Positions 268 through 38,499 of a stretch of 64,000 nucleotides of DNA are shown here, in pieces (positions within the stretch are counted from its first letter, which is position 1; each line of letters begins with the position of its first letter). Source of the DNA: Craspedostauros australis (taxonomy: Eukaryota > Bacillariophyta > Bacillariophyceae > Mastogloiales > Achnanthaceae); the NCBI GenBank assembly GCA_026770025.1, contig JAMXDE010000012.1:620001-684000 (forward strand), in the 5' to 3' direction. The notes below the pieces were generated by a model. The model worked only from the letters and a program-made list of their open reading frames with translations. It had not been told where the DNA came from and ran no database searches. Made by a program: the position numbers and the translations under genes.

Positions 268-524
268 GTTCCCGACTTTCGCTGACACGTACCAATACTA
301 GTCCGGTAGAGAAAGCACTCTGCTCACTCGTTTCTCACATACAAAACAAGGATACATTTAAAGTCGTCCTTTTGATGTAAGACAGAAATCTGTGCAATAA
401 ACTATTCGGAGTCATATCGTGTACATTATTCCATTTGCAATCCCATTTTGTGATGCTCCAATTAAGTGGCTTTCCAGGGTAGAGGCGAGAAATACACAAT
501 CCTACTGTATAGTATGATGTTCTA
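268..524. other. 3' flank of NOG1 up to the array boundary
   Basis: No gene seen. An AATAAA at 396-401 lies 129 bases after the NOG1 stop and could be its polyadenylation signal. From about 480 the DNA becomes rich in short TATTCTATTGTA-like words, and homology with the units of the tandem array starts at about 525 inside this stretch. Confidence 0.4.
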
Positions 525-701
525 ATGTATTGAGTTCTATTGTAGGGTATTCTATTGTATGATATGTTTGTGTATGGTGAAAATTGTGTGCGTCTGTATG
601 TAGACGGGCAGTGTGATGCTGTGGTATTCATGGTTGCGTACTCGTTCGACAATTGGCTGCAACCGCATCTGCGACTTCAAGTCTAAGCGCAGGAAAGCAA
701 G

Positions 702-2028
702 CTACTGAACCATCATGGCTGGCAGCACCTTGTGCAGAACAGGACTGAACCATTGCTGGACGATGTCCCTCGATCCGTACCATCTCGATTCCGAGGCTTC
801 GGATGCGTCAGATGTGTGTTGATCGTGCTCATGTTGATGCTGATGCTGGTTCTGCAGCATGGAGGTGTGGTACACGTTGTCCAAGGTGATCTGGAGATTG
901 GAACCCTCCAGGTGCGCAAGCGGGACAGGGACGATGCCATCGCCGTCCTGGTGTCCTTGACCAGACAGCAACTTGTACGATTGGTACGCAAGCATGTGAT
1001 CAGCATCTGGCTGTGAGGTGATGGTGTTTGGAGAAGGGATGTGTGCTTGCTGCTGCTCGACGTTCAATGCGGATCCGGCAGCAGACACGTAGAAGAGACG
1101 GTCGTTGAAGAAGGCACCTGGGAAGGTGTCGTGAACGATACGGAGTGCACCGCCGGTGATGTCAACGGAGCCCTTGGGGCATGGGATGTGGGGAGACCCG
1201 AGCGTGACGATTCCCAGGATGCTGTCGATGTCAATCTGCAGATCCTTGCCGTTGGTGTCGTCCATTCCGTATCCGACAGCGGCTCTGTTTGTTGGAAGGA
1301 GGCGAATGGTGAATGGTGAATGATGAACGTGATGATGCATGGAGGGAGAACGCGAGGGGTGATAGTGTGAGTGAAATGAATGGAATAGAGCAGAGTAAAG
1401 CAGAACACTGAAGCATGCACAGGAGCAGTCGCACAGGAGCAAAGCCGCACCAAACTCACCTTGCGAGCCAGCCACCGGCGGAGTGTCCCACCAGGATGAT
1501 CTTGGCGGTCGTGCCTTCCTCGTTGGCGACATCCTGGATTCTCTTGACCTCTTTCGCCACCTTCTGAAGGTACCATCGGTACGCCCACTTGGTTGCTGGT
1601 GCCTTGAAGGTCATGAAGTCGAGATCGCACATGCCGAATGCAATGGTCTGTGCCCAATCATGTCGCTGGAGTGGCAGGACGTGGATGTGATCCATTGCGT
1701 TGGTCATATCGTTGTCGTTGTTGTTGTTGTCGTTGTCGTTGCTCCACCATCCAGCGTCGATGGCTTGCTGTGCGATGTTGGGAACCAGGTCGTCGACGTA
1801 GTCGCTGGCTGCGGTTGCGAAGCCTGGAAGAACGAGGACGTGCGTTTGCTGTGGATTGATGTGAGTTGCCGTGGCGGCTGGTGGCGGTCCTTGTCGTGTG
1901 TGTGTGGTTGATGTTTTTGACGCCGATGGCGTGTTGTGTGTCACCCACGCTTGGCAGTTTGTGATTGAGTTGCACAAACACAGCAGCGTGAGTGTGATGA
2001 GTGCCGTCGTGTTGTTGTATGCTGTCAT
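702..2028 (-). CDS. Plastid-type alpha/beta hydrolase (lipase-like), copy 1
   Basis: Two exons on the minus strand: 2028-1460 and 1284-702, joined across a 175-base intron with a GTGAGT donor and an AACAG acceptor. Together they encode 383 residues. The fold is a Ser hydrolase: VLVLPGF (64-70), nucleophile elbow GHSAGG (181-186, Ser183), TLGSPH (218-222), GDGIVP (304-309, Asp305) and NVYHTS (His329). These three would form the triad, by inference. The N-terminus has a signal peptide (core LTLLCLC) followed by CQA|W, resembling the diatom plastid cleavage site with Trp instead of Phe. An Asn/Asp tract (97-107) is low complexity. Similar PGF...GHSAGGWLAR hydrolases occur in plants and cyanobacteria; the substrate is unknown. 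Copy 1 differs from copies 2 and 3 at Thr12 and Asp166. The ATG at 2028 is chosen because it starts the signal peptide. Confidence 0.75.
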
Positions 2029-4036
2029 TGCGGTTGCTGTTATTGTTGTTGTTGCTGTTTGTTGTTGTTGCGGTTTGTGGAGCGGATGGATTTGTATTTT
2101 GTGAGAGGAAGGTTGATCCGCTTTGTTTTGCTTTGCTTTCCCACAGACAAAACAAGAGGATGGAGAACGTGCCAGCTTGCCGATTCAAGAGCGGCAACCT
2201 CCGCAATCTGTCATACAGGTTCCAGTCATGGCGGAATACATGCGGGTGCAGAGGACACAACGCCTGGAGCAGTCTCAGCCACACTTCCATCCCCAAGCAT
2301 TGGTCTTGTTCGGCACAGGAAATACAGGTGGGTCCACAAGCAGCGAGCACTCGCAAAAGAAACGAAGTTGCAGTGTTGTGTGGTGGTGAAAGTGAGCTTC
2401 ACTGAACGTGTGGAAACATGAACACCGGTTTGTCATGAATTCGTTGCCACGTCCATCCTCGATGGCCAATCAGAAGCCTCTACCAGTCTTCCGTCAACAC
2501 AACTCCAATGGCCTCACACCCAACCACGAACAACACGTTACGAAAGACAACATCCCTTCTCCCCACACAACAAGAACAACAACAATACGAGATGCACAGT
2601 TGGGCGTGCTGGTAGTGAATGACTTATCCTGCTCATTCCAACTGTTAATTGGTTCTCGGAGAAAAGCCCATTAATCCGCAAACATCATCATCATTGCGCT
2701 ACAAGTACTCAAGAGAACAACAACAAGAACAACAAGACAACGGCCCTTCACGACTCAACCAGTTCACATTTTCACCAAACAAGATGGAGCAAACTGGTCG
2801 CAGAGCAACTGCAGAGATGAGGATGGATGGTATGTGTGGTACGCATGGCGAAGATGGTATTGGTTTGCATGATTGGGTCTGTATCACCATGATGATGATG
2901 ATGATCAGAAGCACGCGAGACGTCGCATTGTCGCCAGTCTATCACTGTGCGGGTCTCCGTTCTCGCCTTTGCAGTTGCGGATGCTGCCGCGGTCGCCCGC
3001 CACAACTGTACGCCATACTCGGACTCAAATAGAGAGGTACACAGAGTAGCTGGTCGTCAAGTGTCGCACGATTGGTGACGGTGCTCAAGCTGCTGTTCCC
3101 TGTCAATCCTCCATCATCACGAAAGCTGCTGGACTACTGGGTTGCATGTACAGGCTTCGAACATGTGTAGGTCGTCTGTGTGGATGATGAGACGTGCACA
3201 TCTGTCGGGGTATGAATACCTGTCGAGAGAGAAGAGGAGGAAGGATGGCACGATCAGGAGGATGTCCATGGTTCGGACTTGCAGCGCGCGAGTATCGTGC
3301 TGTTTTGTGTTGCTTGGCGTGACGGCATCCATGGACTGGTATGCATGGTGAGGAGTTTTGCGTTGTCACTCTGCCTTTGCTTGGGCCAAAGTATGTGGTA
3401 TGTGGTATGTGATTTGATTTGGGATTGGGATCACCACACAAGACCAACCCCTCCGGATTCACCGGTGTTGTTGCATCATTGCTCTGGCCTTGTTCGGGCC
3501 TGGTTGAGTGTTTGTGTGTGGGCACCAATTGTTCGCCGCTGGCATGAACTGGTGAATGACGTGTTTCGACAGCCAACCAGATCGCTTCTCCACATTTCGG
3601 GATTGGCAATTGAATTTTGTTGGGAGAAGGGAGACGATAAGTGGGGATTGGTCAAACTGGTGGCGTTGCTGTGAATGGCGATTCTACATAGAGTATTATG
3701 ACGCTAACGCCCACGAACCATACAAATGATGTCACGAACGAATGCAATTCACGTTGTTGCTGTGCCCGTTGTGCCCGTTGTGTTTTTGGCTTGTCGTTCT
3801 TGTCCCTCTGTGCAGTCTTCTCCATTGTGGTTGTGCTCGTGAATGTGCGCAACTGTGCGTTGGTGTGGATTCTTCCGATGTCCATCCTCTCCTCACAAAA
3901 TCAAAAGCAACACAAACACAACAGCCACAACAACAGCAACAACAACCACAACAACAACAACGAAGCAAAAGAGGACAATCAGACTCCACCAAATCAACAA
4001 CACACAACACACACACACAACACACACAATACAATC
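2029..4036. other. Divergent intergenic region of unit 1
   Basis: Two kb between the start codons of the minus-strand hydrolase and the plus-strand lumen protein, so it probably holds both promoters. Open frames here on either strand show no family signature and differ between units, so none is called. It contains a GTT/GTTGTT tract near 2040-2085 that is 36 bases longer overall than in units 2 and 3, and CAA and CA repeats just upstream of 4037. The last differences between units 1 and 2 lie here, at about 3200-3231. Confidence 0.5.
3903..4033 (+). repeat. CAA/CA-rich simple sequence in the 5' leader of the lumen-protein gene
   Basis: Repeated CAACAACAG and CAACAAC words are followed by an (AC)n run, ending directly before the ATG at 4037. 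The same sequence occurs at 18717-18847 and 33531-33661. An upstream in-frame ATG at 3698 would add 113 residues made largely of this low-complexity sequence. Confidence 0.7.
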
Positions 4037-4924
4037 ATGATCATGAACAGCAACAGCAAGCCAACCACATCCAGTGTCAAGCTCTCCCTTTTCCTTGGAC
4101 TCCTCGTCCTCGCAGCACCATGCGCCAACAACCAAGCACAGGCATTCACCACAAGACAGCCAGCATCAGCCAACACCCAGCTCTTCGCCACCATGTTCGA
4201 GTCCGAGCAACCATCGGCATCCCGTTTCGCATTCCTCCAGAACGCCAGACAAGCCATCTCATCCAACGTGCCACAACAATCATTCCAGGATGCAGCCACA
4301 CCTGCCGATCCTCTCTGGAGCACCACCGCCAACGCTGACGCCACACCATCCCTGCCATCAACGTCGACATCCCGACGTGCATGGATGCATTCCATGGCCG
4401 CATTGGCCGTCGCCGCCACATGCACAACGGAACAGAAGCAGCTCAACCTGTCGGACGAGCAACTGGCACAGATCATCATCAGCGACATCGTCAACAAGAA
4501 GTCGCTCGTCACCGCCGATGTCACCAAATCCATCTATGACGAGCAGGCCACCTTCAAGGACGGATCCGACCTTGACGGCAAGTACTACCGCGAGCAATGG
4601 GTCCGCGGCTGCCGCATGCTCTTTGACGCAGCTGAATGCGAGTCGCGACTCATCGAGGACACCCTTTCGGTGACCAAGCACGCCGTGACCTTCCGCTTCG
4701 AGGAGGACTTGACATTCCGCGGTCCATTCTCGCCCAAGTGCTTCCTGAGCGGAACCGTCGTCATGAAGCGCTGCCCAGTGTCCGGACTGATCAAGTCTTA
4801 CGAGGAGATCTGGGACAAGGATGTGTCAAGCATCGTGAAGTCTGCGAAGCTTCAGGGCGGCAACCGCATGACCGACCTCTTCATGGCTCGTCTTCAGTCT
4901 TCGGATGACAGTGTCATGGCATAA
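4037..4924 (+). CDS. Probable thylakoid-lumen SnoaL/NTF2-like protein, copy 1
   Basis: The 295-residue protein starts at ATG 4037, which opens a clear signal peptide (LSLFLGLLVLAAPCA, 16-30). AQA|F follows at 34-37, the diatom plastid cleavage motif. A second targeting element, STSRRAWMHSMAALAVAA (110-127), has twin Arg113-Arg114 before a hydrophobic stretch, as in Tat-type thylakoid-lumen transfer signals. The mature domain (about 135-285) reads like the SnoaL/NTF2-like fold of DUF2358 proteins: LAQIIISDIV, a YDEQATFKD segment, and C-terminal strands with GPFSPKCFLSG and YEEIWD. The biochemical role is unknown. An in-frame ATG at 3698 gives 408 residues but hides the signal peptide behind a repetitive tail, so it is not preferred. 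All three copies encode the same protein. Confidence 0.7.
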   Translation: MIMNSNSKPTTSSVKLSLFLGLLVLAAPCANNQAQAFTTRQPASANTQLFATMFESEQPSASRFAFLQNARQAISSNVPQQSFQDAATPADPLWSTTANADATPSLPSTSTSRRAWMHSMAALAVAATCTTEQKQLNLSDEQLAQIIISDIVNKKSLVTADVTKSIYDEQATFKDGSDLDGKYYREQWVRGCRMLFDAAECESRLIEDTLSVTKHAVTFRFEEDLTFRGPFSPKCFLSGTVVMKRCPVSGLIKSYEEIWDKDVSSIVKSAKLQGGNRMTDLFMARLQSSDDSVMA

Positions 4925-5479
4925 ACCAATGCGCTGCAGCACGACGAGGCTTGTTGTGAATCCTCACGCATCCCCGTGCACATACATTCTCGCACATCTC
5001 CACACGCAATTTTTCACGCAAGGAAGTGAATCTCATCACGACCGAGCACCAACACCAATACAGCAACCATCTACACAGCAACCATACAGCACCCCATACA
5101 CCATAGAACATAGAACATAGAATACAATAGAATACACTCAATAGAATACAATAGAATACAACAAAAAATACAATACACAATCAACCACTCTACAATCATC
5201 ATCTTGTGTTCGCAGAGCGTTGAGCAGTCTACTCTCTGCCATGGTGTCAAAATCACGCCACAAATCGCTTTGTCCTCAATGTGTGCGCGTCTCCATGCGA
5301 TCGTTTCACATCCGTTTTGTTCGAAACCAATGCGTTCCACCGACAGCATACGACCACGTACAACCACACATGCCTTCACGACATTCATTGAACCTGACTT
5401 TGCATCACTCACAATTTCAACCATTGCAATCTCTGCAATGCATCGCAGCAACAAGAAGCAACAAACAACAACAGCCAAG
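4925..5479. other. Spacer between lumen-protein gene and SIT, with ATAGAATACA repeats
   Basis: No gene seen. At 5103-5170 it holds a cluster of short direct repeats built on ATAGAATACA and ATAGAACAT, repeated at 19917-19984 and 34731-34798. These words are the reverse complement of the TATTCTATTGT words at the left edge of the array (about 540-560). Confidence 0.6.
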
Positions 5480-7867
5480 ATGGATCCCATTCAGCTCGTC
5501 AAGTCGGTGTACTCCACCGGACTCTTCATCTTCTCGATCACCATCGTCTGCGGACTCATCTTCAATGAGTAGACCAAGGTCTCGTCCGAGGTCCACCCAG
5601 TGGTCGCCGTCGTCATCATGATCGCCACCCTCGTCTGGCTCAACATGGCGGAGGGAGGACAGGGTTCTCTCGTCGGTCTCCCACCAGTCGACCGCGACCT
5701 CTACGTCGAATCCCACCCAACCAGCCACAAGTGCACCTCCCTCGCCCACAAGGGTGACAACCTCGATCACTACCTCATAGGACGTCAGTTCATGGTCCTC
5801 CTCATGGTCTTCACCATCAACCAGTGCGGTGCCCCGCTCGCCGACGCCGAAGTCTTCGGACTCCCAGACATCATCATCCAGATCTTCCTCGGATCCGGAG
5901 CTGCCATGATCCTCATGGCCGCTCAAGCCGGACAGCTCAACTCCCAAGTCAACGCCTCCCTTTGCATGCTTGACTGCGTCAACAACTTCTTCGCCGTCTT
6001 CACCCTCTATGTCGCCCTCGCCATCGACTTCTCTGGACTTCTGCACTCGTGCTACCTCGTCCAGATGTTCTTCGTCTGGGCCTCCGGCAAGGAAATCGAG
6101 TCGAAGGAACCACCACGTGACGGTGCCCAGAACCTCTTCTACTGGGGCCGCATCCTCATCTCCCTCGCCATCCTGTGCTACGCCATGGTTGGCATCCTCC
6201 TCTTCCTCTTCATGTCCATCGTGGGTATGCTCGAGGGTATGCAGATCGCCTTCTTCGCTGTCGCCAAGCTTCCAAAGGAGGAGCGTGGAGACCACCCAAT
6301 GGCCCGCAAGACCTGCAAGCTCCTCTTCCGCGTGACGGACGCAACCTTCCAGGATTCATGATCGGACGTCAGATCTGCGTGACCATGTGCTTCTTCATCA
6401 TCGCCCGTGTCACCACTCTCGATGTCGAGGTCGGAACTGGCAAGAACATCTTCAGAGTCTCCGATTGTCGAGATGTACATGTGAGTATATGTCGAAATGT
6501 ACGTGTATATGTGCATCGTTCACCCGCTATTCTCTCATACGCACTTGGACGGTATAACTACATTCGTGTCGATAGTATGCTGTGATTCGTCAGAATTACA
6601 GGGGAAACGGAACACACGAAAAGGGGCAAGATTTCTGGAGGAAATTTGCAAATGACGATTTCTGAGAGAATTGGAAGATCGTCCGTCCATCCATCAATGG
6701 TACCAAGAGAATCTCGAGGTACTTCCCAACTAAACCTCAGATGACAATATCATCTGACAGACCACTGCATCACCAATGGAACGTGACATCTGGAGAGCAG
6801 AAGGACACCTACTGACGTCGACAGGATGTCAACATGTCACCACGTCGACATCTGTCTCCGAGTCAGAGCAGGAGGTGAAGATCCGATGACCGAAGGGCAT
6901 CAGCATCATGGATACAGAAGGTGAACTTCAAATGGCGAGTACTCATGGAGTAAGAGCCAGTACTGAATGAACAGAGTGTCGAATACGGAGTACGTATCGA
7001 ACACGGAGTATCTTGCGCGACGAGCACACGATGTTGAGAGAGAGAGAGAGAATACAGAGAAGAGCGAGAGAGCATCTCGCGTACCGACTCATAGTCGGAG
7101 ACTGAATCTACGAAACAGATTGAAGCGCCGAGAGCATCGGGCAAGAGAACGGCGTACACCAAGAGGATTGGAGTAGCCAACTAGTGAAATAGCAAACAGA
7201 AGACTATCAACCAACACCATCTTCCACGATCATAGGTTACCGTGCGCGGAACTTGCCAACATCCGATAGCACCCAGGAATTCTTCAACACTGGACTTCTC
7301 GGAGCCCTCATCACCACCATCATCGCCTCCATCACATGGCAGTTGGTTGCATCCGTCTTCCCAATCGCCTTCCTCTCCAACCCAATCGTCTACATCTTCC
7401 TCCAGTTCTGTCTGTTGTTGGAAGCTACTGGTATCTGCTCCGGAGCCTGGGTTCTTGCTTCCATCCACAAGGCCGTCTCTGGCTTCCAGTTCGATGAGGT
7501 GTGCATTGGCACCCCAGAGGAACGCGCCGCCGGCATGAAGCCAGATCACAAGAGCAACCGCAATCTGCACCTTGGAACCAATGTGCTTGGTGGTGAGGCC
7601 GGTTCCACCGCCGTTCCAAAGGAATACCTCGAGCTCCAGAAGGCTCTGGCCGCACAGACCGAGTCTTACTCCGTCCGTCGCGAGCGCATCCTGTCGAACA
7701 TCAAGGGACTCCGCGAGGAGATCAATTCGTGCAGCAACGACGACGAGGATGCCGCCGTCTTCGAGTCTGCCCTTCGCATGGAGACTGCTTCCATGAACAA
7801 GCTGAACCAGGAGGAGAACGAGAGCTCCGAGGCTGACGCCGATGAGGAGATGGGAGTGCAGAAATAG
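5480..7867 (+). pseudogene. SIT: Silicon transporter (SIT) pseudogene, copy 1
   Basis: The frame starting MDPIQLVKSVYSTG is a diatom silicon transporter, the multi-pass plasma-membrane family that imports silicic acid. Signatures are AEGGQGSLVGLPPVDRDLY (57-75), GRQFMVL (GRQ 101-103), a LEGMQIAFFAVAKLPKEERG segment, and IGRQICVTMCFF. The two EG.Q and two GRQ sites are the proposed silicic-acid-binding positions. It is dead in several ways: TAG at codon 31 where the family has Gln in EEQTKV; a 66-base in-frame loss after CYAM that removes a loop and membrane segment still present in copy 3; a one-base loss after LLFR; and a solo LTR at 6466-7261. The C-terminal part (EERAAGMK, helix, GVQK, TAA-free end at TAG 7865) is otherwise well kept. 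TAG is not a sense codon here, because neighbouring genes end on it. Confidence 0.9.
6466..7261 (+). mobile_element. Solo LTR in SIT copy 1
   Basis: A 796-bp non-coding insertion in SIT beginning TGTCGAGATG and ending TTGCCAACA, flanked by the 6-bp duplication TCCGAT (6460-6465 and 7262-7267). The TGT...ACA ends, the target duplication and the lack of coding sequence fit a solo LTR of an LTR retrotransposon; the Copia or Gypsy side cannot be told. The homologous site in unit 3 is empty. The insertion predates the duplication that made unit 2, which carries the same copy. It includes a GA-repeat tract near 7030-7050. Confidence 0.7.
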
Positions 7868-8295
7868 GCACGTCAACGTATGATATTTCACATGATAATC
7901 TGGCGCAACCACAGTGCGCCGCATCAACACATGGATCACGACTCCGATGGTATGTCTGAGATGTATCGTGAATCTCAGACCATGTACCGCTTTCCTCCAA
8001 GAGATGCAAAGTGCAATCGCATGCCATACATATACCTGCCACAACATATCGCAACACGTCGCAATACATTACGGCGTATGGGCTGGACAGAGGTACCATG
8101 ACCTTGCAACACGAAGCGGCGTTCAGCACAGAACAGCGTACAATCCTCTCATAGTGAAGTAATTGTTGTCCACTGAAAAATAGTCCAGTAACGACTGATT
8201 TATGTCAACGATGGATGTTAAGCATTTGACAGCTACTCATGGAGATTCCATTGACAGGTGGTTGGTTGGTTTTTGTCCAATTTATAGCCATGCTC
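7868..8295. other. Convergent 3' spacer between SIT and the minus-strand ankyrin gene
   Basis: 428 bases between the SIT stop and the stop of the oppositely oriented ankyrin gene. No coding sequence is seen. The first ~115 bases are still homologous to the 3' flank of the unit 3 SIT. Confidence 0.5.
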
Positions 8296-9888
8296 TCATG
8301 AAGCAAGAATGGTCAAGTAGTCGACAACATCAGCGCGGCCCTTTTTAATCGCAATATCCAGCGCAGTCAAGCCACTGCTGGTCTTGATGCTGATGTCTGC
8401 GTTGCACGATTCTACCAAGTACTTGACGACTTCCAATTCACCATTCCCACTTGCCCACCAAAGTGCTGTACTGCCAATCTTGTTTTGAATGTCGATTTCT
8501 GCGTTGCACGATTCCACCAAATACTTCACGACCTCCAATCTACCATTGAAACACGCTTGGTGCATCGCAGTGTTGCCAGACCTTATGGTTTTGATGTTGG
8601 CATTTGCGTTGCAGACTTTCACCAAATACTTCACGATCTCCAATCTACCATTGAAGCACGCTCTGTGCAGTGCAGTGTTGCCAGACCTGTTGGTTTTGAT
8701 GTTGATATCTACCTTGCCTTGTTCAACCAACGACTTCACAACGTCGAGATGACCATCAGCGCTTGCGCGATGGAGTATCGATCGACCATCCTTGCCTTTG
8801 ACGTTCAAATCGACAGTAGGTGCTGCGACCAGATACTTGACAACCTCGAAGTGGCTGTTGCGATATGCCTTGTAGAGTGGAGTCTCGTGCTTGTCGTTCT
8901 TCGCGTTGATATTGGCTTTGCCGGATTCAACCAGCCACTTCACAACATCGAGATGGCCATCGCCACTTGCGAGATGGAGCACGGTGTTGCCATCTTTGTG
9001 TTGGGAGTTGGGATGTATGCTTGGTGTTCCGATGAGATGCTCGACAACATCGAAGTGGCTGTGGCAATATGCCTTGTAGACTGGAGTCTCGCGCTCATGA
9101 TTCTCAGCATTCACGTTGGCTTCGCCTGATTCCAACAAATACTTCACCAACCATTTCACAACATCCAAATGACCGTTTCTACAAGCAATATGGAGCGCGG
9201 TATCGCCGTCATTGTTCTGGACGTCGATGGCCACAGTACGAGCCTCCATCACATACTTCAAAATGTGAAGATGACCCTTCCGACACGCATTGTGGATCGC
9301 AGTATTGCCAAATTCATCTTGGACATTGATTTCCACTCCACATGATCCAACGAAGTACTCCACAACATCCAAGTGTCCATGAAGACACGCGGCATGGAGG
9401 GCATTCTCACCCTTCTCATCTTGCACGAGAGCGCTTGCAGAATGTGACTCGATCAGAGTCTTCACGATGGCCACATGACCCTCGGTACAAGCGTCGTGGA
9501 GTGCCACCTTGCCGGAGTTATCCTGGAGGTTGACATCTGCGGCATGCGATCCGGCCAGGTATTCCACGACATCAAGGTTGCCCTGTGCGCATGCATAGTG
9601 TAGCGCAGTCTCTCCATCCATGGATTTGGCATTGACGTTTGCTCCGCATGATTCCATCAACTGTTTGATCGTTTCAAGTTGGCCGTTGGAGCATGCGAAG
9701 TGGAGTGCAGTCTTGTCGCGGTCATCCTTGATCGTGTCGATGGAGGTTTGTGGGAATGCTGTCTTCCACGCAGTGAGGGTATCCATGTCTCCTTGTTCTG
9801 CGGCGCGTAGGAGATCCTGATGGGTGATGATTGACGGGGATGCATCATCAGAGGTCGACTTGGGCGGAATGAGAGACGGTGAGGTCAT
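8296..9888 (-). CDS. Ankyrin-repeat protein (14 repeats), minus strand, copy 1
   Basis: The first ATG in this frame is at 9888 (MTSPSLIPPKSTSDD); the frame is open further upstream but without ATG. The product is 530 residues: a Ser-rich leader, then HQDLLRAAEQGDMDTL and 14 ankyrin repeats of about 33 residues (consensus DG.TALH.AC..GHLDVVKYLVES..A.VN.Q.) running to the C-terminus, with no other domain. Repeats 6-10 alternate two types, GHLDVVKWLV and ETP(V/L)YKAY..SHF(D/E)VV, so a two-repeat block was duplicated. Repeats 10-13 are very alike (SGNTA.H.ACFNGRLE.VKYLV). Ankyrin repeats bind proteins; the partner is unknown. Its 3' end faces SIT and its 5' end faces the second ankyrin gene. The unit 2 copy appears identical. 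Confidence 0.85.
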   Translation of the reverse strand: MTSPSLIPPKSTSDDASPSIITHQDLLRAAEQGDMDTLTAWKTAFPQTSIDTIKDDRDKTALHFACSNGQLETIKQLMESCGANVNAKSMDGETALHYACAQGNLDVVEYLAGSHAADVNLQDNSGKVALHDACTEGHVAIVKTLIESHSASALVQDEKGENALHAACLHGHLDVVEYFVGSCGVEINVQDEFGNTAIHNACRKGHLHILKYVMEARTVAIDVQNNDGDTALHIACRNGHLDVVKWLVKYLLESGEANVNAENHERETPVYKAYCHSHFDVVEHLIGTPSIHPNSQHKDGNTVLHLASGDGHLDVVKWLVESGKANINAKNDKHETPLYKAYRNSHFEVVKYLVAAPTVDLNVKGKDGRSILHRASADGHLDVVKSLVEQGKVDINIKTNRSGNTALHRACFNGRLEIVKYLVKVCNANANIKTIRSGNTAMHQACFNGRLEVVKYLVESCNAEIDIQNKIGSTALWWASGNGELEVVKYLVESCNADISIKTSSGLTALDIAIKKGRADVVDYLTILAS

Positions 9889-11329
9889 GGATAGTGATGT
9901 CCGGACTTGATGGTTGTGGTTGCGCAATGGTGAGGCGAACAGCGCAACGAGTGGGGGGAGGATGAAGACCACGATGGAGCTGGTGTGTGTCGAAAAGGGA
10001 TGACTTGTTGCTGAGATCAGATCAATGCGACGGGCTTTTTCGATGTGATTGATTGATTGCTTGGATGATCGTAGTCCCTTGATCTCATCTCTGTCTGCTT
10101 TTTATGAAGCGATCATCTTCTGTTTCGTGGTCGTTGGTGGTGGTATCCCGTGCTCCGTTTCACGCAGCGTGCATGGCATTACGTTGATTGTTGTTTCACG
10201 ATGTTTCTCATTTCATATTGCTTCCGCGATGTCGCTGTGATCACCCGATCTACTTTGGCATCAACGTGAACATCAGCTTGAACATTGTCTTGAACGTGAT
10301 CGTGGCCGTGACCGCGGCCGTGGCCAGCCACAGAAGGAGAAAGTTCATCGTGGGCGCAGGTGTCGGAAGTCATCATTGCCCAAACATCTTTGGAACGTGG
10401 AGACGATCGAAGATCCTGCGAGCGTGGTACGACTATGTTGCAAAGAATGAGAGTCAACACGAATCTGGAGAAACCGCTGGTATTACGTGTTGGATCGTGC
10501 CCGCTCTGTGGCGCCGAAATTGGTCACGGCCATCTTCTGCACTGCTGCTGCTGCTGTTGTTGTTGTTGTTCTCATCTGTTTTCCAGGAAGGTACGATGGA
10601 TCGGTTGCGTTCTTGTAGTGCCATGGCGACTGATGCCCCTCCTGAACGTAATTCTCCGCGTGTGCGTGGACGAGAGGAAGAACACGGCGGAAGTGTTCGT
10701 GCTGTGGGATCTCCGGCTGCTGATGCTACTACTTTGGATCTCTCTACTCGTTGGTCGATACTTCTGCTGGTACCACTTCTGCTGATAGCACTTCTACTCG
10801 TATGCACATCATCATCATTGTGTTTGTTGCAGCGTCGTCAGTTCCGTGGCTGGTGGTGCAATGGGGCATCCATGATCGTCATACGAGTGCTCATCTCACA
10901 CCACGCTTTTCCTCACTCTCTGTGTCATTCTTGTTCTCACGATGTTGTTTGTTGTCTTCTTGAGGGAGAAGCTCAGCGAACGCAAATGGCGAACATTTCT
11001 GAGTCAAGGGATCCGCGGATCCCTCCTCACACTCGCACGACTTGTTTGAGTGATGGGACCTCAAGATCGCATTCGAAACACTCACAACGACACAGGCCGC
11101 GCTACGACTCGTGCGCAAAGAGAGAGACAAAGAGAGGACCATGCGACCAAGACAAGACAACAACACACACCATTCCGCCCCATACTCGAGCACACTAACA
11201 ACAGACATCGAGTTGCCACTCATAGCAATACAAGGTATTGAAGACACACGATCGATATCTCTGCTGTAGATAGCTCAGACCACGCACTTCCTTAACAGCC
11301 AATCCAACGCCATCGACCATCCCCTCAAA
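9889..11329. other. Shared upstream region of the two divergent ankyrin genes, unit 1
   Basis: 1.44 kb between two divergent ankyrin genes, a possible bidirectional promoter. Open frames of up to 336 codons exist on both strands, but they overlap each other, rest on CTG/TTG repeats (about 10540-10575), and show no family. A minus-strand 93-codon frame (10460-10179) has a hydrophobic start and a His/Asp-rich tract (GHGRGHGHDHVQ); it is noted but not called. Confidence 0.4.
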
Positions 11330-15389: not shown

Positions 15390-15551
15390 ATGTATTGAGT
15401 TCTATTCTATGATATGTTTGTGTATGGTGAAAAATGTGTGCGTCTGTATGTAGACGGGCAGTGTGATGCTGTGGTATTCATGGTTGCGTACTCGTTCGGC
15501 GATTGACTGCAACCGCATCTGCGACTTCAAGTCTAAGCGCAGGAAAGCAAG

Positions 15552-27846: not shown

Positions 27847-30203
27847 TGATGAGCATGGTGGCATGTCCATTATGGAGTTGCACAAGGTTGTGGATGAAGA
27901 CGAGGGTGCTGCGCAGATGGATTCGTACATAGATCGCGTCGTGCGTTCCATCACATCCTCCAGGGTGGCTGAGAGCGACGGCGCTGCCGAGGAAGCGAAA
28001 TGAGCACCAACGGCAACAACAGCAGACTGAGGAGCAAGCATGTCATGGAATGAAGAAGATGAATTAGATGAGGAATCAGAGTATTACAAGTAACTACAGT
28101 GCAAGCAGGTGATCAGTGACCCATTCAATGGCACGCCGCACATGCCGAGCCATTCATCAGTGCAACAATTTTGCTTGCATTCAGTGAAAAGACGAAGGTT
28201 GATTTGCACGCTGTGCTCGCTTTGCAATTGCTGTGCTTTGTGTTGTGGATAGTATTATACTGCATACCAGAATCGCCAGAGTGTTATGCTTTTGGTCTGG
28301 TTTTGTGACGTCTCGATCTGATAGGAAGATCCGATTGATGCTGGTGCGATGGTGAACTAGCAAGGAGCACGGAACGTCAGCACAACCGAGCCTTGAGCAG
28401 ATCCATTGCCAACGGCTCTGGCTGACGTACGTACATCAACTGATGAAGCATGCGTCCCGTCCACTCGAAATCAAGTCCGATATTCTTGCCTGATGCCACT
28501 GCCGCACAGTTTACGCAAGCCAATTCTACCACAACCGTCCGGGAAAGCAAAGAGTGCATGGGGAAGATGCGAAACGCAATACATGTCCTCCGAAGGTAGA
28601 GCAGGAACATTCATTCCAGTCCGCTACATTTCGGGCAGCGCGTTGGAACTTGTGCCGCGGATCTGCTGATGTTTTGATGGCTACAAGCCTTCACAACGCA
28701 CTGCTGTGCCCGTCACTTGAGAGACTTCATTGGGGATGACTCGTCGGACATGTTGTAAGGTACTCATGTCATCGGTTGCCTGATGTTCTCATCTCAGTTG
28801 GATGTAGATTGCGGGGAAGATGTTGGTCATTTTTTGCCAATCCTCTCCTTCATCGTCGCCTGGCATGCAATTACCGCCTCCACAGCAGAACTGGTGCTGG
28901 ATTCATCGGCGACGGCAGTCGTTGCTTTCCGAATTCCTGATCTGTGTGTGTGTTTTCCAATCCATGACACTTGATCAAGTGCCGAGTACGAATGCTGGCG
29001 TTGGCAACTGTGAGCTGGCCATGTGGAAGCATCCTCCATCCATGGTTGCTCGACATGCAGGCACGCTTGCAGCGCTTCTCTGCTTCGTGCAGTTGTGTTG
29101 TATTCTGCTCTGGAGCATGTCAAGCAACCGCGGTTGCTGAAGTATTGCCGAGGATCAGCATGCCTGGTTCGTGCTGCGCATCCTCGGGCTTCTTGGATCT
29201 GCGACGCCGGTTGCTGGTCGCAATTTTCAATGTGATCCCAATCATCAATCCTCGTGGTGAAGGAGCCGATATTGATGATACCGCTGACCATGGTGGCATG
29301 AGCTGCATCCGCGGACCTTCACATCGTGATCATCATGATCGTCGTGACTTCATTCGCGATGATGGAGTCGTCATGAGATTGTTGAATGCGTTGCTGGCAT
29401 ACTTGCAGAAGCAATGCTGTGTTCTGCATTTCTCCATCTCTCTGTCTCGCATCACCTTCTCTTGATCATGGCCTTCGCTTGTCGTCACGTCTCGTCATGT
29501 CCTGTCATGCTTCATCTCTTCTCTTCACTCCACGGATGGATCTCTGTCAACTCGATTGTCATGCGGTCATCATTGGCAACGCCGCGCTTCATCGACGCTC
29601 ATCAATAGCAGTGGCACTTCGTTCCACCTTCATCTGCCATCCTCGTCCCACACCACATCACACCACACGACCATGTCCATTCCTCTTCATGCCATCCCCA
29701 CCGCCGTAACCGTTGTCTCATCTCATGTCTGCCATTCTGGCGAACAAGAAGAGAAGCCACAATTTTGGTGATCTGCGCGCCATTTTTGTTCTTGTTTGGT
29801 TGTATCCAAATGAGTCCCTAACTTCCATGATCGAAGTTCGTGATCCATTCAGATGGGTCGATAAAGGTATCCACAAAGATCCGTCACAACCATCAAACCG
29901 CGTCTCCAACTCCTCTCTCTCGTGTGCGCATCTCATCCGAGCAACATCATTGAACCACTGGATGAAGCAGGTCCGAAGGCATCCATCAAGCTGAAGTATT
30001 CTGCGCTACCAATGCAGTAAGCGAGGCAGCATCCAGCTTTGAATCAACGGATGCAACGATGGAGTTGAGCATTCCTGTGTGATCGTGGAGTGGACCAAAA
30101 CGAAATGGTGTCAAATCAGGATCTCTGCTGTCCGCATGAGTGCGGTGGACACACCGACTATTCTCATTCGTACTCGCATGGTAATCTATTGTTTGGTGAT
30201 CTC
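27847..30203. other. Right part of unit 2, no recognisable gene
   Basis: Counterpart of 13033-15389. Only short unassigned frames are seen. It runs into unit 3 with the same junction sequence that joins unit 1 to unit 2. Confidence 0.4.
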
Positions 30204-30365
30204 ATGTATTGAGTTCTATTCTATGATATGTTTGTGTATGGTGAAAAATGTGTGCGTCTGTATGTAGACGGGCAGTGTGATGCTGTGGTATTCATGGTTG
30301 CGTACTCGTTCGGCGATTGACTGCAACCGCATCTGCGACTTCAAGTCTAAGCGCAGGAAAGCAAG

Positions 30366-31692
30366 TTACTGAACCATCATGGCTGGCAGCACCTTGTGCA
30401 GAACAGGACTGAACCATTGCTGGACGATGTCCCTCGATCCGTACCATCTCGATTCCGAGGCTTCGGATGCGTCAGATGTGTGTTGATCGTGCTCATGTTG
30501 ATGCTGATGCTGGTTCTGCAGCATGGAGGTGTGGTACACGTTGTCCAAGGTGATCTGGAGATTGGAACCCTCCAGGTGCGCAAGCGGGACAGGGACGATG
30601 CCATCGCCGTCCTGGTGTCCTTGACCAGACAGCAACTTGTACGATTGGTACGCAAGCATGTGATCAGCATCTGGCTGTGAGGTGATGGTGTTTGGAGAAG
30701 GGATGTGTGCTTGCTGCTGCTCGACGTTCAATGCGGATCCGGCAGCAGACACGTAGAAGAGACGGTCGTTGAAGAAGGCACCTGGGAAGGTGTCGTGAAC
30801 GATACGGAGTGCACCGCCGGTGATGTCAACGGAGCCCTTGGGGCATGGGATGTGGGGAGACCCGAGCGTGACGATTCCCAGGATGCTGTCGATGTCAATC
30901 TGCAGATCCTTGCCGTTGGTGTCGTCCATTCCGTATCCGACAGCGGCTCTGTTTGTTGGAAGGAGGCGAATGGTGAATGGTGAATGATGAACGTGATGAT
31001 GCATGGAGGGAGAACGCGAGGGGTGATAGTGTGAGTGAAATGAATGGAGTAGAGCAGAGTAAAGCAGAACACTGAAGCATGCACAGGAGCAGTCGCACAG
31101 GAGCAAAGCCGCACCAAACTCACCTTGCGAGCCAGCCACCGGCGGAGTGTCCCACCAGGATGATCTTGGCGGTCGTGCCTTCCTCGTTGGCGACATTCTG
31201 GATTCTCTTGACCTCTTTCGCCACCTTCTGAAGGTACCATCGGTACGCCCACTTGGTTGCTGGTGCCTTGAAGGTCATGAAGTCGAGATCGCACATGCCG
31301 AATGCAATGGTCTGTGCCCAATCATGTCGCTGGAGTGGCAGGACGTGGATGTGATCCATTGCGTTGGTCATATCGTTGTCGTTGTTGTTGTTGTCGTTGT
31401 CGTTGCTCCACCATCCAGCGTCGATGGCTTGCTGTGCGATGTTGGGAACCAGGTCGTCGACGTAGTCGCTGGCTGCGGTTGCGAAGCCTGGAAGAACGAG
31501 GACGTGCGTTTGCTGTGGATTGATGTGAGTTGCCGTGGCGGCTGGTGGCGGTCCTTGTCGTGTGTGTGTGGTTGATGTTTTTGACGCCGATGGCGTGTTG
31601 TGTGTCACCCACGCTTGGCAGTTTGTGATGGAGTTGCACAGACACAGCAGCGTGAGTGCGATGAGTGCCGTCGTGTTGTTGTATGCTGTCAT
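30366..31692 (-). CDS. Plastid-type alpha/beta hydrolase, copy 3
   Basis: Exons 31692-31124 and 30948-30366. The product is identical to copy 2 (383 residues; Ser183, Asp305, His329). With copies 1 and 2 it makes three intact genes for this enzyme within 31 kb. Confidence 0.75.
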
Positions 31693-33664
31693 TGCGGTTG
31701 TAGTTGTTGTTGTTGCGGTTTGTGGAGTGGATGGGTTTGTATTTTGTGAGAGGAAGGTCGAGCTGTTTTGTTTTGTTTTGCTTCCCACAGACACCACAGA
31801 GAGGATGAAGAAGGTACCAGCTTGCCGACCCAAGAGCGGCAACCTCCGCAATCTGTCATACAGGTTCCAGTCATGGCGGAATACATGCGGGTGCAGAGAA
31901 CACAACGCCTGGAGCAGTCTCAACCACACTTCCATCCCCAAGCATTGGTCTTGTTCGGCACGCAGGAAATAGAGGTGGGACCACAAGCAGCGAGTACCGC
32001 AAAACACACGAAGTTGGGTGTTGTGTGGCGAAAGTGAGCTTCGTGCAAACGTTTGGAAACAGGAACACCGGTTTGTCATGAATTCGTTGCCACGTCCATC
32101 CTCGATGGCCAATCAGAAGCCTCTACCAGTCTTCCGTCAACACAACTCCAATGGCCTCACACCCAACCACGAACAACACGTTACGAAAGACAACATCCCT
32201 TCTCCCCACACAACAAGAACAACAACAATACGAGATGCACAGTTGGGCGTGCTGGTAGTGAATGACTTATCCTGCCCATTCCAACTGTTAATTGGTTCTC
32301 GGAGAAACCCCATAAATCCGCAAACATCATCATCATTGCGCAATGCGTACCCAAGAGAACAACAAGACAGCAGGTCATTCGCGACTCAACCAGTTCACAT
32401 TTTCACCACGAAAGATGGAGCAAACTGGTTGCAGAGCAACTGAAGAGAGGACGATGGATGGTATGCATGGTATGGATGGCGACGATGGTACTGGTCTGTA
32501 TGATTGGATCCGTATCACCATGATGATGATGATCAGAAGCACGCGAGACGTCGCATTGTCGCCAGTCTATCACTGTGCGGGTCTCCGTTCTCGCCTTTGC
32601 AGTTGCGGATGCTGCCGCGGTCGCCCGCCACAACTGTACGCCATACTCGGACTCAAATAGAGAGGTACACAGAGTAGCTGGTCGTCAAGTGTCGCACGAT
32701 TGGTGACGGTGCTCAAGCTGCTGTTCCCTGTCAATCCTCCATCATCACGAAAGCTGCTGGACTACTGGGTTGCATGTACAGGCTTCGAACATGTGTAGGT
32801 CGTCTGTGTGGATGATGAGACGTGCGCATCTGTCGGAGTATGAATACATGGTGAGAGAGAAGAGGAGGAAGGATGGCACGATCAGGAGGATGTCCATGGT
32901 TCGGACTTGCAGCGCGCGAGTATCGTGCTGTTTTGTGTTGCTTGGCGTGACGGCATCCATGGACTGGTATGCATGGTGAGGAGTTTTGCGTTGTCACTCT
33001 GCCTTTGCTTGGGCCAAAGTATGTGGTATGTGGTATGTGATTTGATTTGGGATTGGGATCACCACACAAGACCAACCCCTCCGGATTCACCGGTGTTGTT
33101 GCATCATTGCTCTGGCCTTGTTCGGGCCTGGTTGAGTGTTTGTGTGTGGGCACCAATTGTTCGCCGCTGGCATGAACTGGTGAATGACGTGTTTCGACAG
33201 CCAACCAGATCGCTTCTCCACATTTCGGGATTGGCAATTGAATTTTGTTGGGAGAAGGGAGACGATAAGTGGGGATTGGTCAAACTGGTGGCGTTGCTGT
33301 GAATGGCGATTCTACATAGAGTATTATGACGCTAACGCCCACGAACCATACAAATGATGTCACGAACGAATGCAATTCACGTTGTTGCTGTGCCCGTTGT
33401 GCCCGTTGTGTTTTTGGCTTGTCGTTCTTGTCCCTCTGTGCAGTCTTCTCCATTGTGGTTGTGCTCGTGAATGTGCGCAACTGTGCGTTGGTGTGGATTC
33501 TTCCGATGTCCATCCTCTCCTCACAAAATCAAAAGCAACACAAACACAACAGCCACAACAACAGCAACAACAACCACAACAACAACAACGAAGCAAAAGA
33601 GGACAATCAGACTCCACCAAATCAACAACACACAACACACACACACAACACACACAATACAATC
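31693..33664. other. Divergent intergenic region of unit 3
   Basis: Identical to 16879-18850 of unit 2. No gene is called. Confidence 0.5.
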
Positions 33665-34552
33665 ATGATCATGAACAGCAACAGCAAGCCAACCACATCC
33701 AGTGTCAAGCTCTCCCTTTTCCTTGGACTCCTCGTCCTCGCAGCACCATGCGCCAACAACCAAGCACAGGCATTCACCACAAGACAGCCAGCATCAGCCA
33801 ACACCCAGCTCTTCGCCACCATGTTCGAGTCCGAGCAACCATCGGCATCCCGTTTCGCATTCCTCCAGAACGCCAGACAAGCCATCTCATCCAACGTGCC
33901 ACAACAATCATTCCAGGATGCAGCCACACCTGCCGATCCTCTCTGGAGCACCACCGCCAACGCTGACGCCACACCATCCCTGCCATCAACGTCGACATCC
34001 CGACGTGCATGGATGCATTCCATGGCCGCATTGGCCGTCGCCGCCACATGCACAACGGAACAGAAGCAGCTCAACCTGTCGGACGAGCAACTGGCACAGA
34101 TCATCATCAGCGACATCGTCAACAAGAAGTCGCTCGTCACCGCCGATGTCACCAAATCCATCTATGACGAGCAGGCCACCTTCAAGGACGGATCCGACCT
34201 TGACGGCAAGTACTACCGCGAGCAATGGGTCCGCGGCTGCCGCATGCTCTTTGACGCAGCTGAATGCGAGTCGCGACTCATCGAGGACACCCTTTCGGTG
34301 ACCAAGCACGCCGTGACCTTCCGCTTCGAGGAGGACTTGACATTCCGCGGTCCATTCTCGCCCAAGTGCTTCCTGAGCGGAACCGTCGTCATGAAGCGCT
34401 GCCCAGTGTCCGGACTGATCAAGTCTTACGAGGAGATCTGGGACAAGGATGTGTCAAGCATCGTGAAGTCTGCGAAGCTTCAGGGCGGCAACCGCATGAC
34501 CGACCTCTTCATGGCTCGTCTTCAGTCTTCGGATGACAGTGTCATGGCATAA
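33665..34552 (+). CDS. Probable thylakoid-lumen SnoaL/NTF2-like protein, copy 3
   Basis: Protein identical to copies 1 and 2 (295 residues, bipartite presequence plus twin-Arg signal, SnoaL-like domain). Intact. Confidence 0.7.
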   Translation: MIMNSNSKPTTSSVKLSLFLGLLVLAAPCANNQAQAFTTRQPASANTQLFATMFESEQPSASRFAFLQNARQAISSNVPQQSFQDAATPADPLWSTTANADATPSLPSTSTSRRAWMHSMAALAVAATCTTEQKQLNLSDEQLAQIIISDIVNKKSLVTADVTKSIYDEQATFKDGSDLDGKYYREQWVRGCRMLFDAAECESRLIEDTLSVTKHAVTFRFEEDLTFRGPFSPKCFLSGTVVMKRCPVSGLIKSYEEIWDKDVSSIVKSAKLQGGNRMTDLFMARLQSSDDSVMA

Positions 34553-35107
34553 ACCAATGCGCTGCAGCACGACGAGGCTTGTTGTGAATCCTCACGCATC
34601 CCCGTGCACATACATTCTCGCACATCTCCACACGCAATTTTTCACGCAAGGAAGTGAATCTCATCACGACCGAGCACCAACACCAATACAGCAACCATCT
34701 ACACAGCAACCATACAGCACCCCATACACCATAGAACATAGAACATAGAATACAATAGAATACACTCAATAGAATACAATAGAATACAACAAAAAATACA
34801 ATACACAATCAACCACTCTACAATCATCATCTTGTGTTCGCAGAGCGTTGAGCAGTCTACTCTCTGCCATGGTGTCAAAATCACGCCACAAATCGCTTTG
34901 TCCTCAATGTGTGCGCGTCTCCATGCGATCGTTTCACATCCGTTTTGTTCGAAACCAATGCGTTCCACCGACAGCATACGACCACGTACAACCACACATG
35001 CCTTCACGACATTCATTGAACCTGACTTTGCATCACTCACAATTTCAACCATTGCAATCTCTGCAATGCATCGCAGCAACAAGAAGCAACAAACAACAAC
35101 AGCCAAG
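34553..35107. other. Spacer between lumen-protein gene and SIT, unit 3
   Basis: Identical to 4925-5479. The ATAGAATACA repeat cluster is at 34731-34798. No gene seen. Confidence 0.6.
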
Positions 35108-36632
35108 ATGGATCCCATTCAGCTCGTCAAGTCGGTGTACTCCACCGGACTCTTCATCTTCTCGATCACCATCGTCTGCGGACTCATCTTCAATGAGTAG
35201 ACCAAGGTCTCGTCCGAGGTCCACCCAGTGGTCGCCGTCGTCATCATGATCGCCACCCTCGTCTGGCTCAACATGGCGGAGGGAGGACAGGGTTCTCTCG
35301 TCGGTCTCCCACCAGTCGACCGCGACCTCTACGTCGAATCCCACCCAACCAGCCACAAGTGCACCTCCCTCGCCCACAAGGGTGACAACCTCGATCACTA
35401 CCTCATAGGACGTCAGTTCATGGTCCTCCTCATGGTCTTCACCATCAACCAGTGCGGTGCCCCGCTCGCCGACGCCGAAGTCTTCGGACTCCCAGACATC
35501 ATCATCCAGATCTTCCTCGGATCCGGAGCTGCCATGATCCTCATGGCCGCTCAAGCCGGACAGCTCAACTCCCAAGTCAACGCCTCCCTTTGCATGCTTG
35601 ACTGCGTCAACAACTTCTTCGCCGTCTTCACCCTCTATGTCGCCCTCGCCATCGAGTTCTCCGGACTTCTGCATTCGTGCTACCTCGTCCAGATGTTCTT
35701 CGTCTGAACCTCCGGCAAGGAAATCGAGTCGAAGGAACCACCACGCGACGGTGCCCAGAACCTCTTCTACTGGGGCCGCATCCTCATCTCCCTCGCCATC
35801 CTGTGCTACGCCATGGCCGTCACCCTGGTCGCCCTCTTCGATGGAAAGACCACCATGTGGGCCGGAGTGCCAAACGGAGTCGCTGTCATCCTCTTCTTCC
35901 TCTTCGTGTCCATCATCGGTATGCTCAAGGGTATGCAGATCGCCTTCTTCGCTGTCGCCAAACTTCCAAAGGAGGATCGTGGAGATCACCCAATGGCCCG
36001 CAAGCCCTGCGAGCTCCTCTTCCGCGGTGACGGACGCAACCTTCCAGGATTCATGATCGGACGTCAGATCTGCGTGACCATGTGCTTCTTCATCATCGCC
36101 CGTGTCACCACTCTCGATGTCGAGATCGGAACCGGCGAGAACATCTTCGGAGTCTCCGACAGCACCCAGGAATTCTTCAACACCGGGCTTCTCGGAGCCC
36201 TCATCACCACCATCATCGCCTCCATCACGTGGCAGCTGGTCGCATCGGTCTTCCCCATCGCCTTCCTTTCCAACCCAATCGTCTACATCTTCCTCCAGTT
36301 CTTTCTGTTGTTGGAACCCACCAGTATTTGCTCTGGAGCTTGGATCCTTGCCTCCGTCCACAAGGCCGTCTCTGGCTTCCAGCTCGATAAGGTGTGCATC
36401 GGCACCCCAGAGGAGCGCGCCGCCGGCATGAAGTCAGACCACAAGAGCAACCACAACCTGCATTTGGGAACCAACGTTCTTGTGATCAAGGCAGGTTCTA
36501 CCGCCGTTCCACGCGAGCACCTCGAGATGCAGAAGGCCTTGGCCGCCCAGCCAGATTCCTTCTCTTCCCGCCGCGAGCGCATCCTGTCCAACATCAAGGG
36601 ACTCCGCGAGGAGATCAATTCGTGCAGCAACG

Positions 36633-37424
36633 TGTCGAGATGTACATGTGAGTATATGTCAAGATGTACGTGTATATGTGCATCGTTCACCCGCTATTCT
36701 CTCATACGCACTTGGACGGTATAACTATACTCGTGTCGATAGTATACTGTGATTCGTCAGAATTACAGGGGAAATGGAACACACGAAAAGGGGCAAGATT
36801 TCTGGAGGAAATTTGCAAATAACGATTTCTGAGAGAATCAGAAGATCGTCCGTCCATGCGTTAATGGTACCAAGAGAATCTCGAGGTACTTCCCAACTAA
36901 ACCTCAGATGACGATATCATCTGACAGACTACTGCATCACCAATGGAACGTGACATCTGGAGAGCAGAAGGACGCCTACTGACGTCGACAGGATGTCAAC
37001 ATGTCACCACGTCGACAGCTGTCTCCAAGTCAGAGCAGGAGGCGAAGATACAATGACTCATGAAGATCACGGATACTGAAGGTGAACTTCAAATGGTAAG
37101 TACTCACGGAGTAGAAGCCAGTACTGAATGAACGGAGTGTCGAATGCGGAGCACGCATCGAACACGGAGTATCGTGTAGCATGAGCACATGATGTTGAGA
37201 GAGAGAGAGAGAGAATACAGAGAGGAGCGAGAGAGGATCTCGCGCACCGACTCATAGTCGGAGACCGAATCTACGAAACAGATTGAAGCACCGAGAGCAT
37301 CGGGCAAGAGAACGGCGTACACCGAGAGCATCGGAGTAGCCAAGTAATGAAATAGCAAACAGACGACTATCAACCAAGACCATCTTCCACGATCGTAGGT
37401 TACCGTGAGCGGAACTTGCCAACA
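36633..37424 (+). mobile_element. Solo LTR (first) in SIT copy 3
   Basis: 792-bp element of the same family as the one at 6466 (TGTCGAGATG...TTGCCAACA), flanked by its own 6-bp duplication GCAACG (36627-36632 and 37425-37430). The site is unoccupied in units 1 and 2, so this is an independent insertion. No coding sequence. Confidence 0.7.
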
Positions 37425-37452
37425 GCAACGACGACGATGATGTAGCCGTCTT

Positions 37453-38269
37453 TGTCAAGATGTACATGTGAGTATATGTCGAGATGTACGTGTATATGTG
37501 CATCGTTCACCCGTTATTCTCTCATACGCAATTGAATGGTACAACTACATTCGTGTCAATAGTATGCTGTGATTTGTCAGAATTACAGTGGAAATGTAAC
37601 ACACGAAAATGAGCAGAATTTCTGGAGGAAATTTGCAATCGACGATTTCTGGGAGAATTAGAAACATCGTCCGTCCATCCATCAATGAAGACGTATGGTA
37701 CCAAGCGAATCTTGAGGTACTTCCCAACTAAACCTCAGATGACGATATCATCTGACAGACCACTGCATCACCAATGGAACGTGACATCTGGAGAGCAGAA
37801 GGACGCCTACTGACGTTGACAGGATGTCATCATGTCACCATGTCGACATCTGTCTCCAAGTCAGAGCAGGAGGCGAAGATCCGATGACCGAAGGGCATCA
37901 AGATCATGGATACGGGAGATGCACTTCAAATGGTAAGTACTCATGGAGTAGGAACCAGTAGTGAATGAACGGAGTGTCGAATGTGGAGTACGCATCGAAC
38001 ACGGAGTATCGTGTAGCACGAAGTACACGATGCTGAGACAGAGAGAGAGAGAGAGAATACAAAGAGTAGCGAGAGAGCATCTCGCACACCGACTCATAGT
38101 CGGAGACCCAATCTACAAGACAAGTCAAACGCGCCGAGAGCATCGGGCAAGAGAACGAGCGTACACCGAGAGGATCGGAGTAGCCAAGTAATGAAATAGC
38201 AAACAGAACGACTATCAACCAACACCGTCATCCACGATCGTAGGCTTCCAATCACAGAACTTGCCAACA
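37453..38269 (+). mobile_element. Solo LTR (second) in SIT copy 3
   Basis: 817-bp element of the same family (TGTCAAGATG...TTGCCAACA), flanked by the 6-bp duplication CGTCTT (37447-37452 and 38270-38275). It is separated from the first by 28 bases of SIT coding sequence. It is more diverged in places than the other two and may be somewhat older. A third independent insertion of the family into SIT. Confidence 0.7.
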
Positions 38270-38499
38270 CGTCTTCGAGTCTGCCCTTCGCATGGAGACT
38301 GCCGCCATGAACAAGCTGAACCAGGACGAGGAGAACGAGAGCTCCGAGGCTGACGCCGATGAGGAGATGGGCGTCCAGAAATAAGCACGCCAATGTATGA
38401 TATTACACATGATAATCTGGCGCAACCACAGTGCGCCGCATCAACACATGGATCACGACACCGATGGTATGTCTGAGATGTATCGTGAATCTCAGACCA

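Follow-up and report, generated by a model that had tools for sequence, protein, structure and literature searches.

Diatoms take up silicic acid by means of silicon transporters (SITs), whose genes undergo frequent duplication and loss (PMC10700740). Neighbouring or tandem SIT genes have been published from Phaeodactylum tricornutum (PMC2758714), Synedra (PMC6114903) and Nitzschia putrida (PMC9054022). In P. tricornutum, PtSIT2-1 and PtSIT2-2 are a local duplication whose coding regions are 100% identical at the nucleotide level, with a Ty1/copia-like element nearby (PMC2758714). The Synedra genes SuSIT1/SuSIT2 and SaSIT-TD/SaSIT-TRI are likewise duplicated and identical, and gene conversion has been proposed for them; the authors of this 2018 study were aware of no earlier report of non-crossover gene conversion from a diatom genome (PMC6114903). 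The SIT genes on contig 000000F of N. putrida are a recent tandem expansion (PMC9054022), and frequent mitotic recombination has been reported in P. tricornutum (Bulankova et al. 2021, as cited in PMC9266582). The locus described here lies in a 64,000-nucleotide stretch of GenBank contig JAMXDE010000012.1 (positions 620,001 to 684,000), which is called the window below and supplies the coordinates. It holds an array of three SIT-containing blocks in which the middle block appears to be a hybrid of the outer two.

Results

Self-blastn, an exact offset comparison and a three-way alignment gave the layout of the array as D1 - S - hybrid D - S - D2, in which block D is about 7.4-8.3 kb and the spacer S about 7.4 kb. 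The three blocks are also called units 1, 2 and 3.

550 to 7982, plus strand: D1, the first block copy (unit 1), with left part L1 at 550-3224, core M at 3225-6027 and right part R1 from 6028; self-blastn and offset identity.
7983 to 15399, no strand assigned: spacer S, from D1 to the next block, with ankyrin-repeat genes; second copy at 22797-30213.
15400 to 22796, plus strand: hybrid middle block (unit 2), with a unit-3-like left part (L2), core M and a unit-1-like right part (R1); offset identity and three-way alignment.
30214 to 38499, plus strand: D2, the last block (unit 3), with L2, M to 35655 and R2; self-blastn, offset identity and alignment.
3225 to 6027, plus strand: core M, identical in the three blocks; also at 18039-20841 and 32853-35655.

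Unit 2 carries the left part of unit 3 and the right part of unit 1, as the first-pass annotation of this DNA had claimed. When the three units were aligned base by base, every alignable site to the left of M was unit-3-like in unit 2 and every site to the right was unit-1-like, with the single, ambiguous exception of base 6190; the sites did not alternate. All alignment columns that distinguish unit 1 fell at 401-3224, all that distinguish unit 3 at 6028-8100, and the only one that distinguishes unit 2 was 6190. The raw event counts (168, 441 and 1) are inflated, as they include the unalignable positions 400-549 and the stretch with differently placed inserts of about 800 bp; well-aligned substitutions alone numbered 95 on the left (557-3224) and 22 on the right (6028-6454), plus the one exception. 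Beyond 6464, where units 1 and 2 are the same and the differences are all those of unit 3, sites were not treated as independent evidence.

The same picture emerged from the offset comparison. The segments 6028-20841 and 20842-35655 (14,814 bp each) differed at a single base, 6190/21004 rather than at 6189/21003 as first annotated. At an offset of 14,814, exact-identity runs of at least 60 bp were found at 2892-3197, 3225-6189, 6191-20841 and 20933-21002, and at an offset of 29,628 they were found at 2892-3197, 3225-6027 (2803 bp) and 6119-6188. A shared core previously placed at about 3232-6025 (about 2.8 kb) was thereby recovered and given its exact limits. The odd base adjoins a 66-bp length difference, where the gap placement chosen by the aligner leaves unit 2 alone; with the gap shifted 3 bases to the right, unit 2 shares a C with unit 3 at 35818. 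Base 6190/21004 would be either a new mutation or the sole unit-3-like site to the right of M.

Unequal crossover predicts an inner unit that switches once, from the left part of the right-hand unit to the right part of the left-hand unit, within a long stretch that is identical in the parental blocks. Unit 2 has this structure, and its switch falls within the 2803 bp of M. An unequal crossover inside M thus best explains unit 2 on the sequence evidence; a location in M would be favoured because M is the longest stretch identical between D1 and D2, where homologous exchange is favoured.

The limits of the array differ somewhat from those first drawn, three units of 14.8 kb starting at 525. The duplicated segment is exactly 14,814 bp, as described, but unit 3 is partial, its similarity ending near 38499 (equivalent to 7982), and similarity in self-blastn begins near 550. 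To the left of about 550 no similarity above that of shuffles was found (1-548 against 14851-15398), and the sequence after D2 has no repeat partner within the window. At the right end of D1 and D2, weak and decayed similarity runs about 100 bp past 38499/7982, to about 38600/8068 (score 46 against a maximum of 36 among 200 shuffles); farther out, 8400-9000 and 38900-39700 showed no similarity. This decay suggests that D1 and D2 are the products of an old duplication.

Within M, units 1 and 3 differed at 0 of 2803 sites. The longest difference-free run in 10,000 shuffles (117 differences, 5876 sites) was 821, far below 2803, so the run is not due to chance. The surrounding DNA is diverged: 82 of 887 sites differed at 1966-2891 (9%), 22 of 437 at 6028-6464 (5%) and 13% in the 3' part of the SIT gene. 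Farther to the left, 8 of 1416 sites differed at 550-1965; immediately to the left of M, 0 of 306 differed at 2892-3197 and 5 of 27 at 3198-3224. A stretch of identity with limits of this kind, set in diverged paralogous DNA and extending over noncoding sequence, is the mark of ectopic gene conversion, although here the left border is blurred by 2892-3197. M was probably homogenised in this manner, before or separately from the crossover, and the divergence between D1 and D2 is a mosaic of the kind that repeated ectopic conversion would give. The crossover alone cannot explain the identity of M because units 1 and 3 are untouched in the formation of unit 2; conversion would have come first or have acted separately through unit 2. 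The prediction of a single crossover between older, diverged units therefore held for the order of sites and left the shared core unaccounted for.

The identity of M might instead be ancestral and held by strong constraint, as M contains an intact open reading frame (ORF) and the 5' part of the SIT gene. We regard this as very improbable. DNA without an assigned gene differed at 0 of 1028 sites in M against 79 of 824 at 2029-2891 (Fisher p 2e-29, for stretches picked after the profile was seen), and the part of the SIT gene within M has a stop codon. Conversion could also be credited with the whole pattern, if a whole-segment duplication produced three blocks and later conversion gave unit 2 its mixed ends, with no crossover between two blocks. 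Conversion does seem active here, to judge from M and from the contrast between 550-1965 and 1966-2891. To produce unit 2, however, it would need long tracts that halt to the left and right of M and never alternate, as well as an exact 14,814-bp period across S and both junctions. One crossover is simpler, and an origin by conversion only appears improbable.

The sequence of events that we consider more likely than not has an old duplication, conversion of M and then a recent unequal crossover inside M. The site pattern, the identity of M, the divergence around it and the SIT lesions are observed in the letters of the window; the conversion, the crossover, their order, the diatom source and a correct assembly are inferred. 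The duplication, probably in a diatom nuclear genome, would have given two blocks, D1 and D2, on either side of S; a hydrolase-like gene, a small intact ORF and a SIT gene would lie in both. Ectopic gene conversion would then have made the central 2.8 kb (M) identical and left the same SIT nonsense codon in both blocks. In the last step, D2 on one chromatid would have crossed over inside M with D1 on another, yielding L1-M-R1-S-L2-M-R1-S-L2-M-R2 and, as its reciprocal, a lone L1-M-R2 that lacks S. The crossover would be recent because there is only one difference in 14,814 bp. At 4.77e-10 per site per generation, a rate borrowed from P. tricornutum (PMC6604790), one difference corresponds to about 71,000 generations (95% range 1,800 to 394,000).

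Several points weigh against this sequence of events. The identity of M demands an event beyond the crossover, and the conversion picture is not clean since 2892-3197, to the left of M, is also identical. Base 6190/21004 is unexplained. The repeat, read from assembled sequence, is identical save 1 base in 14,814. This near-identity also favours an assembly artefact, in which the genome has only D1-S-D2 and the assembler passed from L2 through M into R1 and so walked M-R1-S-L2 twice, or in which two haplotypes were merged into a single path. An assembly graph in which L1 and L2 both lead into a single M node, with R1 and R2 both leading out of it, would print the same letters, and M, as the longest identical stretch of D1 and D2, is the likeliest place for such a tangle. 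The earlier statement that a crossover "must produce" this arrangement was for that reason too strong. False duplications are common, making up 4-16% of sequence in older assemblies of three vertebrates (PMC9516828). On the other side, if the assembly drew on long reads, these would easily bridge the 2.8 kb of M, and many of them would be at odds with a false L2-M-R1 join. The window contains no N (no gap letters). The copies are not quite identical, with one differing base, but heterozygosity at that site could have the same effect. Arrays of this kind do occur, as an identical tandem SIT pair in P. tricornutum was confirmed by polymerase chain reaction (PCR; PMC2758714). Taken together, we hold an artefact to be unlikely, yet the most serious of the alternatives to a crossover in M.

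The SIT genes that the array carries were identified with Pfam.

5480 to 7867, plus strand: SIT gene of unit 1 (unit 2 copy at 20294-22681); PF03842, E 6e-119, for the piece 5573-6358.
35108 to 38384, plus strand: SIT gene of unit 3; PF03842, E 2e-115, for the piece 35813-36721.

Both pieces belong to the SIT family, with PF03842 scores of 398 bits (unit 1) and 386.8 bits (unit 3) against a cut-off of 26.8. None of the three copies has an intact reading frame. A TAG at codon 31 is common to all three. Compared with unit 3, units 1 and 2 are also short by 66 bp at one place and by 1 bp at another, and each carries one 796-bp insertion; unit 3 has a second in-frame stop, TGA at 35705-35707, and two insertions of about 800 bp. 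Outside the core, 7262-7738 and 36155-36631 (159 codons) showed 62 differences, 38 of them at third codon positions. For this 3' part, the nonsynonymous rate (dN) was 0.069 and the synonymous rate (dS) 0.442, a dN/dS of about 0.16, and the two SIT genes seem to have long diverged under selection. In contrast, the 16 differences between units 1 and 3 at 6189-6464 fell 9/2/5 at codon positions 1/2/3, without a third-position excess, which would fit relaxed constraint there.

One could read further, that conversion spread a SIT nonsense allele into a long-separate paralog and disabled both genes, which the dN/dS over the 159 codons outside the tract suggests were earlier under purifying selection, and that the converted tract then served as the crossover point that multiplied the dead genes and their neighbours. 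We offer this only tentatively and think it rather doubtful.

Poor sequencing is not favoured as the source of the SIT frame breaks. The catalytic region of the PI4-kinase gene downstream aligns in one frame to a relative in PDB, and the MGDG-synthase-like gene reads through with one probable intron (judged by eye); base quality looks good because these two conserved genes, the only two checked, look unbroken.

The array is followed by eukaryotic-type genes (PI4-kinase, MGDG-synthase-like and SAPS-like), and together with the SIT genes they lead us to take the window as diatom DNA, although SIT relatives also occur in bacterial records. A SIT protein piece found no relative in viral contigs and, in bacterial and archaeal genomes, matched 3 loci among 48 candidate stretches, none of which is the present locus. 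An intact 505-amino-acid SIT-related ORF (48% identity in the best segment) lies on a 65.9-kb contig of Wenzhouxiangella sp. XN79A (L002:9890-11407), and a metagenome-assembled genome (MAG) of Wenzhouxiangellaceae (L003) has a SIT match at 45%; a literature search for SIT together with Wenzhouxiangella found nothing. The third locus (L001:1186-2874) is a SIT ORF of 562 amino acids whose best segment is 56% identical to the query; its 3.4-kb contig has been assigned to a Clostridia MAG, but algal contamination of that bin seems more likely. The SIT motif reads EGMQ in unit 1 (6233-6244), L001 and L002, and KGMQ in unit 3 (35927-35938).

The insertions in the SIT genes were delimited by comparison among the units.

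6466 to 7261, plus strand: 796-bp TG...CA element in unit 1 (copy at 21280-22075); target duplication TCCGAT; uninterrupted counterpart in unit 3, at 36152.
36633 to 37424, plus strand: second insertion, 792 bp; target duplication GCAACG; uninterrupted counterparts in units 1 and 2, at 7727 and 22541.
37453 to 38269, plus strand: third insertion, 817 bp; target duplication CGTCTT; uninterrupted counterpart in the other block.

They form one family, 7-10% apart, that starts with TGTC and finishes with CAACA: the 792-bp copy differed from that at 6466 at 56 of 790 sites, and the 817-bp copy from the other two at 79 of 796 and 78 of 792. With TG...CA ends, 6-bp target duplications and an uninterrupted counterpart for all three, they look like solo long terminal repeats (LTRs); self-comparison found no internal retrotransposon region or full-length element within the window. 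An origin as introns ('introners') was also considered, as GTGAGT near the left end and AG near the right end of the insertion can be picked out by eye. By a hand count for those splice sites only, the leftover bases would break the frame in unit 1. All three insertions share the orientation of the gene and are clustered: their sites fall inside some 0.5 kb of SIT coding sequence, the second and third 472 and 494 bp past the first.

The other genes of the blocks and the spacer are as follows.

702 to 2028, minus strand: hydrolase-like gene with a GHSAGGW motif, also in units 2 and 3; probable intron at about 1274-1459 (by eye).
4037 to 4924, plus strand: intact core ORF of 295 amino acids, identical in the three units.
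8296 to 9972, minus strand: ankyrin-repeat ORF of 558 amino acids in S (copy at 23110-24786); Ank_2, E 6e-148.
11330 to 12169, plus strand: ankyrin-repeat ORF of 279 amino acids in S (copy at 26144-26983); Ank_2, E 2e-83; 102-bp tandem repeat.

The Pfam matches of the hydrolase-like gene, one of three ORFs tried, were all below cut-offs (PGAP1, E 7e-4; Lipase_3, E 0.005; Abhydrolase_6, E 0.05). A longer form of the core ORF (3698-4921) had eight weak Pfam matches, all below cut-off, with E 0.0025 or worse and at residues 15-150. The core ORF matched no NCBIfam family, and its single match in PDB (E 0.87) was taken as chance. A single-sequence fold model from residue 48 onward was unusable (mean pLDDT, the predicted local distance difference test, 32). 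The N-terminus of the 295-residue form looks, from its motif, like a putative diatom plastid presequence. The ankyrin-repeat genes of S are made of DNA repeats of about 102-105 bp, at 11461-12040 and 8482-8717. Downstream of the array, the ORF at 39227-43603 (1458 amino acids) had no Pfam match and that at 58841-62275 (1144 amino acids) only weak coiled-coil-type matches below cut-off. A tRNA scan and Rfam at gathering scores returned nothing, 38600-52000 had no match in a plasmid collection, and a 41-base core pattern had 0 matches in viral contigs.

Discussion

The modest interest of this locus lies in its conversion mosaic and in the nonsense codon common to all SIT copies. If the assembly is right, two steps of SIT turnover, conversion between diverged paralogs and one unequal crossover at the converted tract, would be preserved in one sequence. 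If it is wrong, the locus shows how exactly a repeat loop can mimic a crossover. Should conversion indeed have disabled both SIT genes, this would be a natural case of conversion driving gene loss in diatoms, and copy number would still be changing, with inner blocks that are always L2-M-R1 and a reciprocal deletion, L1-M-R2, without S.

Each of the known SIT systems differs from the present locus. PtSIT2-1 and PtSIT2-2 are two expressed genes, 2.3 kb apart and verified by PCR (PMC2758714), whereas here three broken SIT genes lie about 14.8 kb apart with a hybrid block in the middle. For N. putrida, no evidence of pseudogene formation in the genome was reported (PMC9054022). The Synedra genes are wholly identical, and recent duplication and conversion are thus hard to separate (PMC6114903); here, in contrast, the identical tract lies within diverged copies. 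An identity tract of this type is a better case for conversion in diatoms than wholly identical genes are.

Unequal crossover (non-allelic homologous recombination) is a textbook mechanism and an ordinary way in which gene copies multiply. As in other gene clusters shaped by it, the inner copy here is a hybrid and the outer copies retain the outermost flanks. The mechanism is no different from that already known, and tandem, identical SIT genes of diatoms have been published before; only the locus is new and, if real, it is a clear new example.

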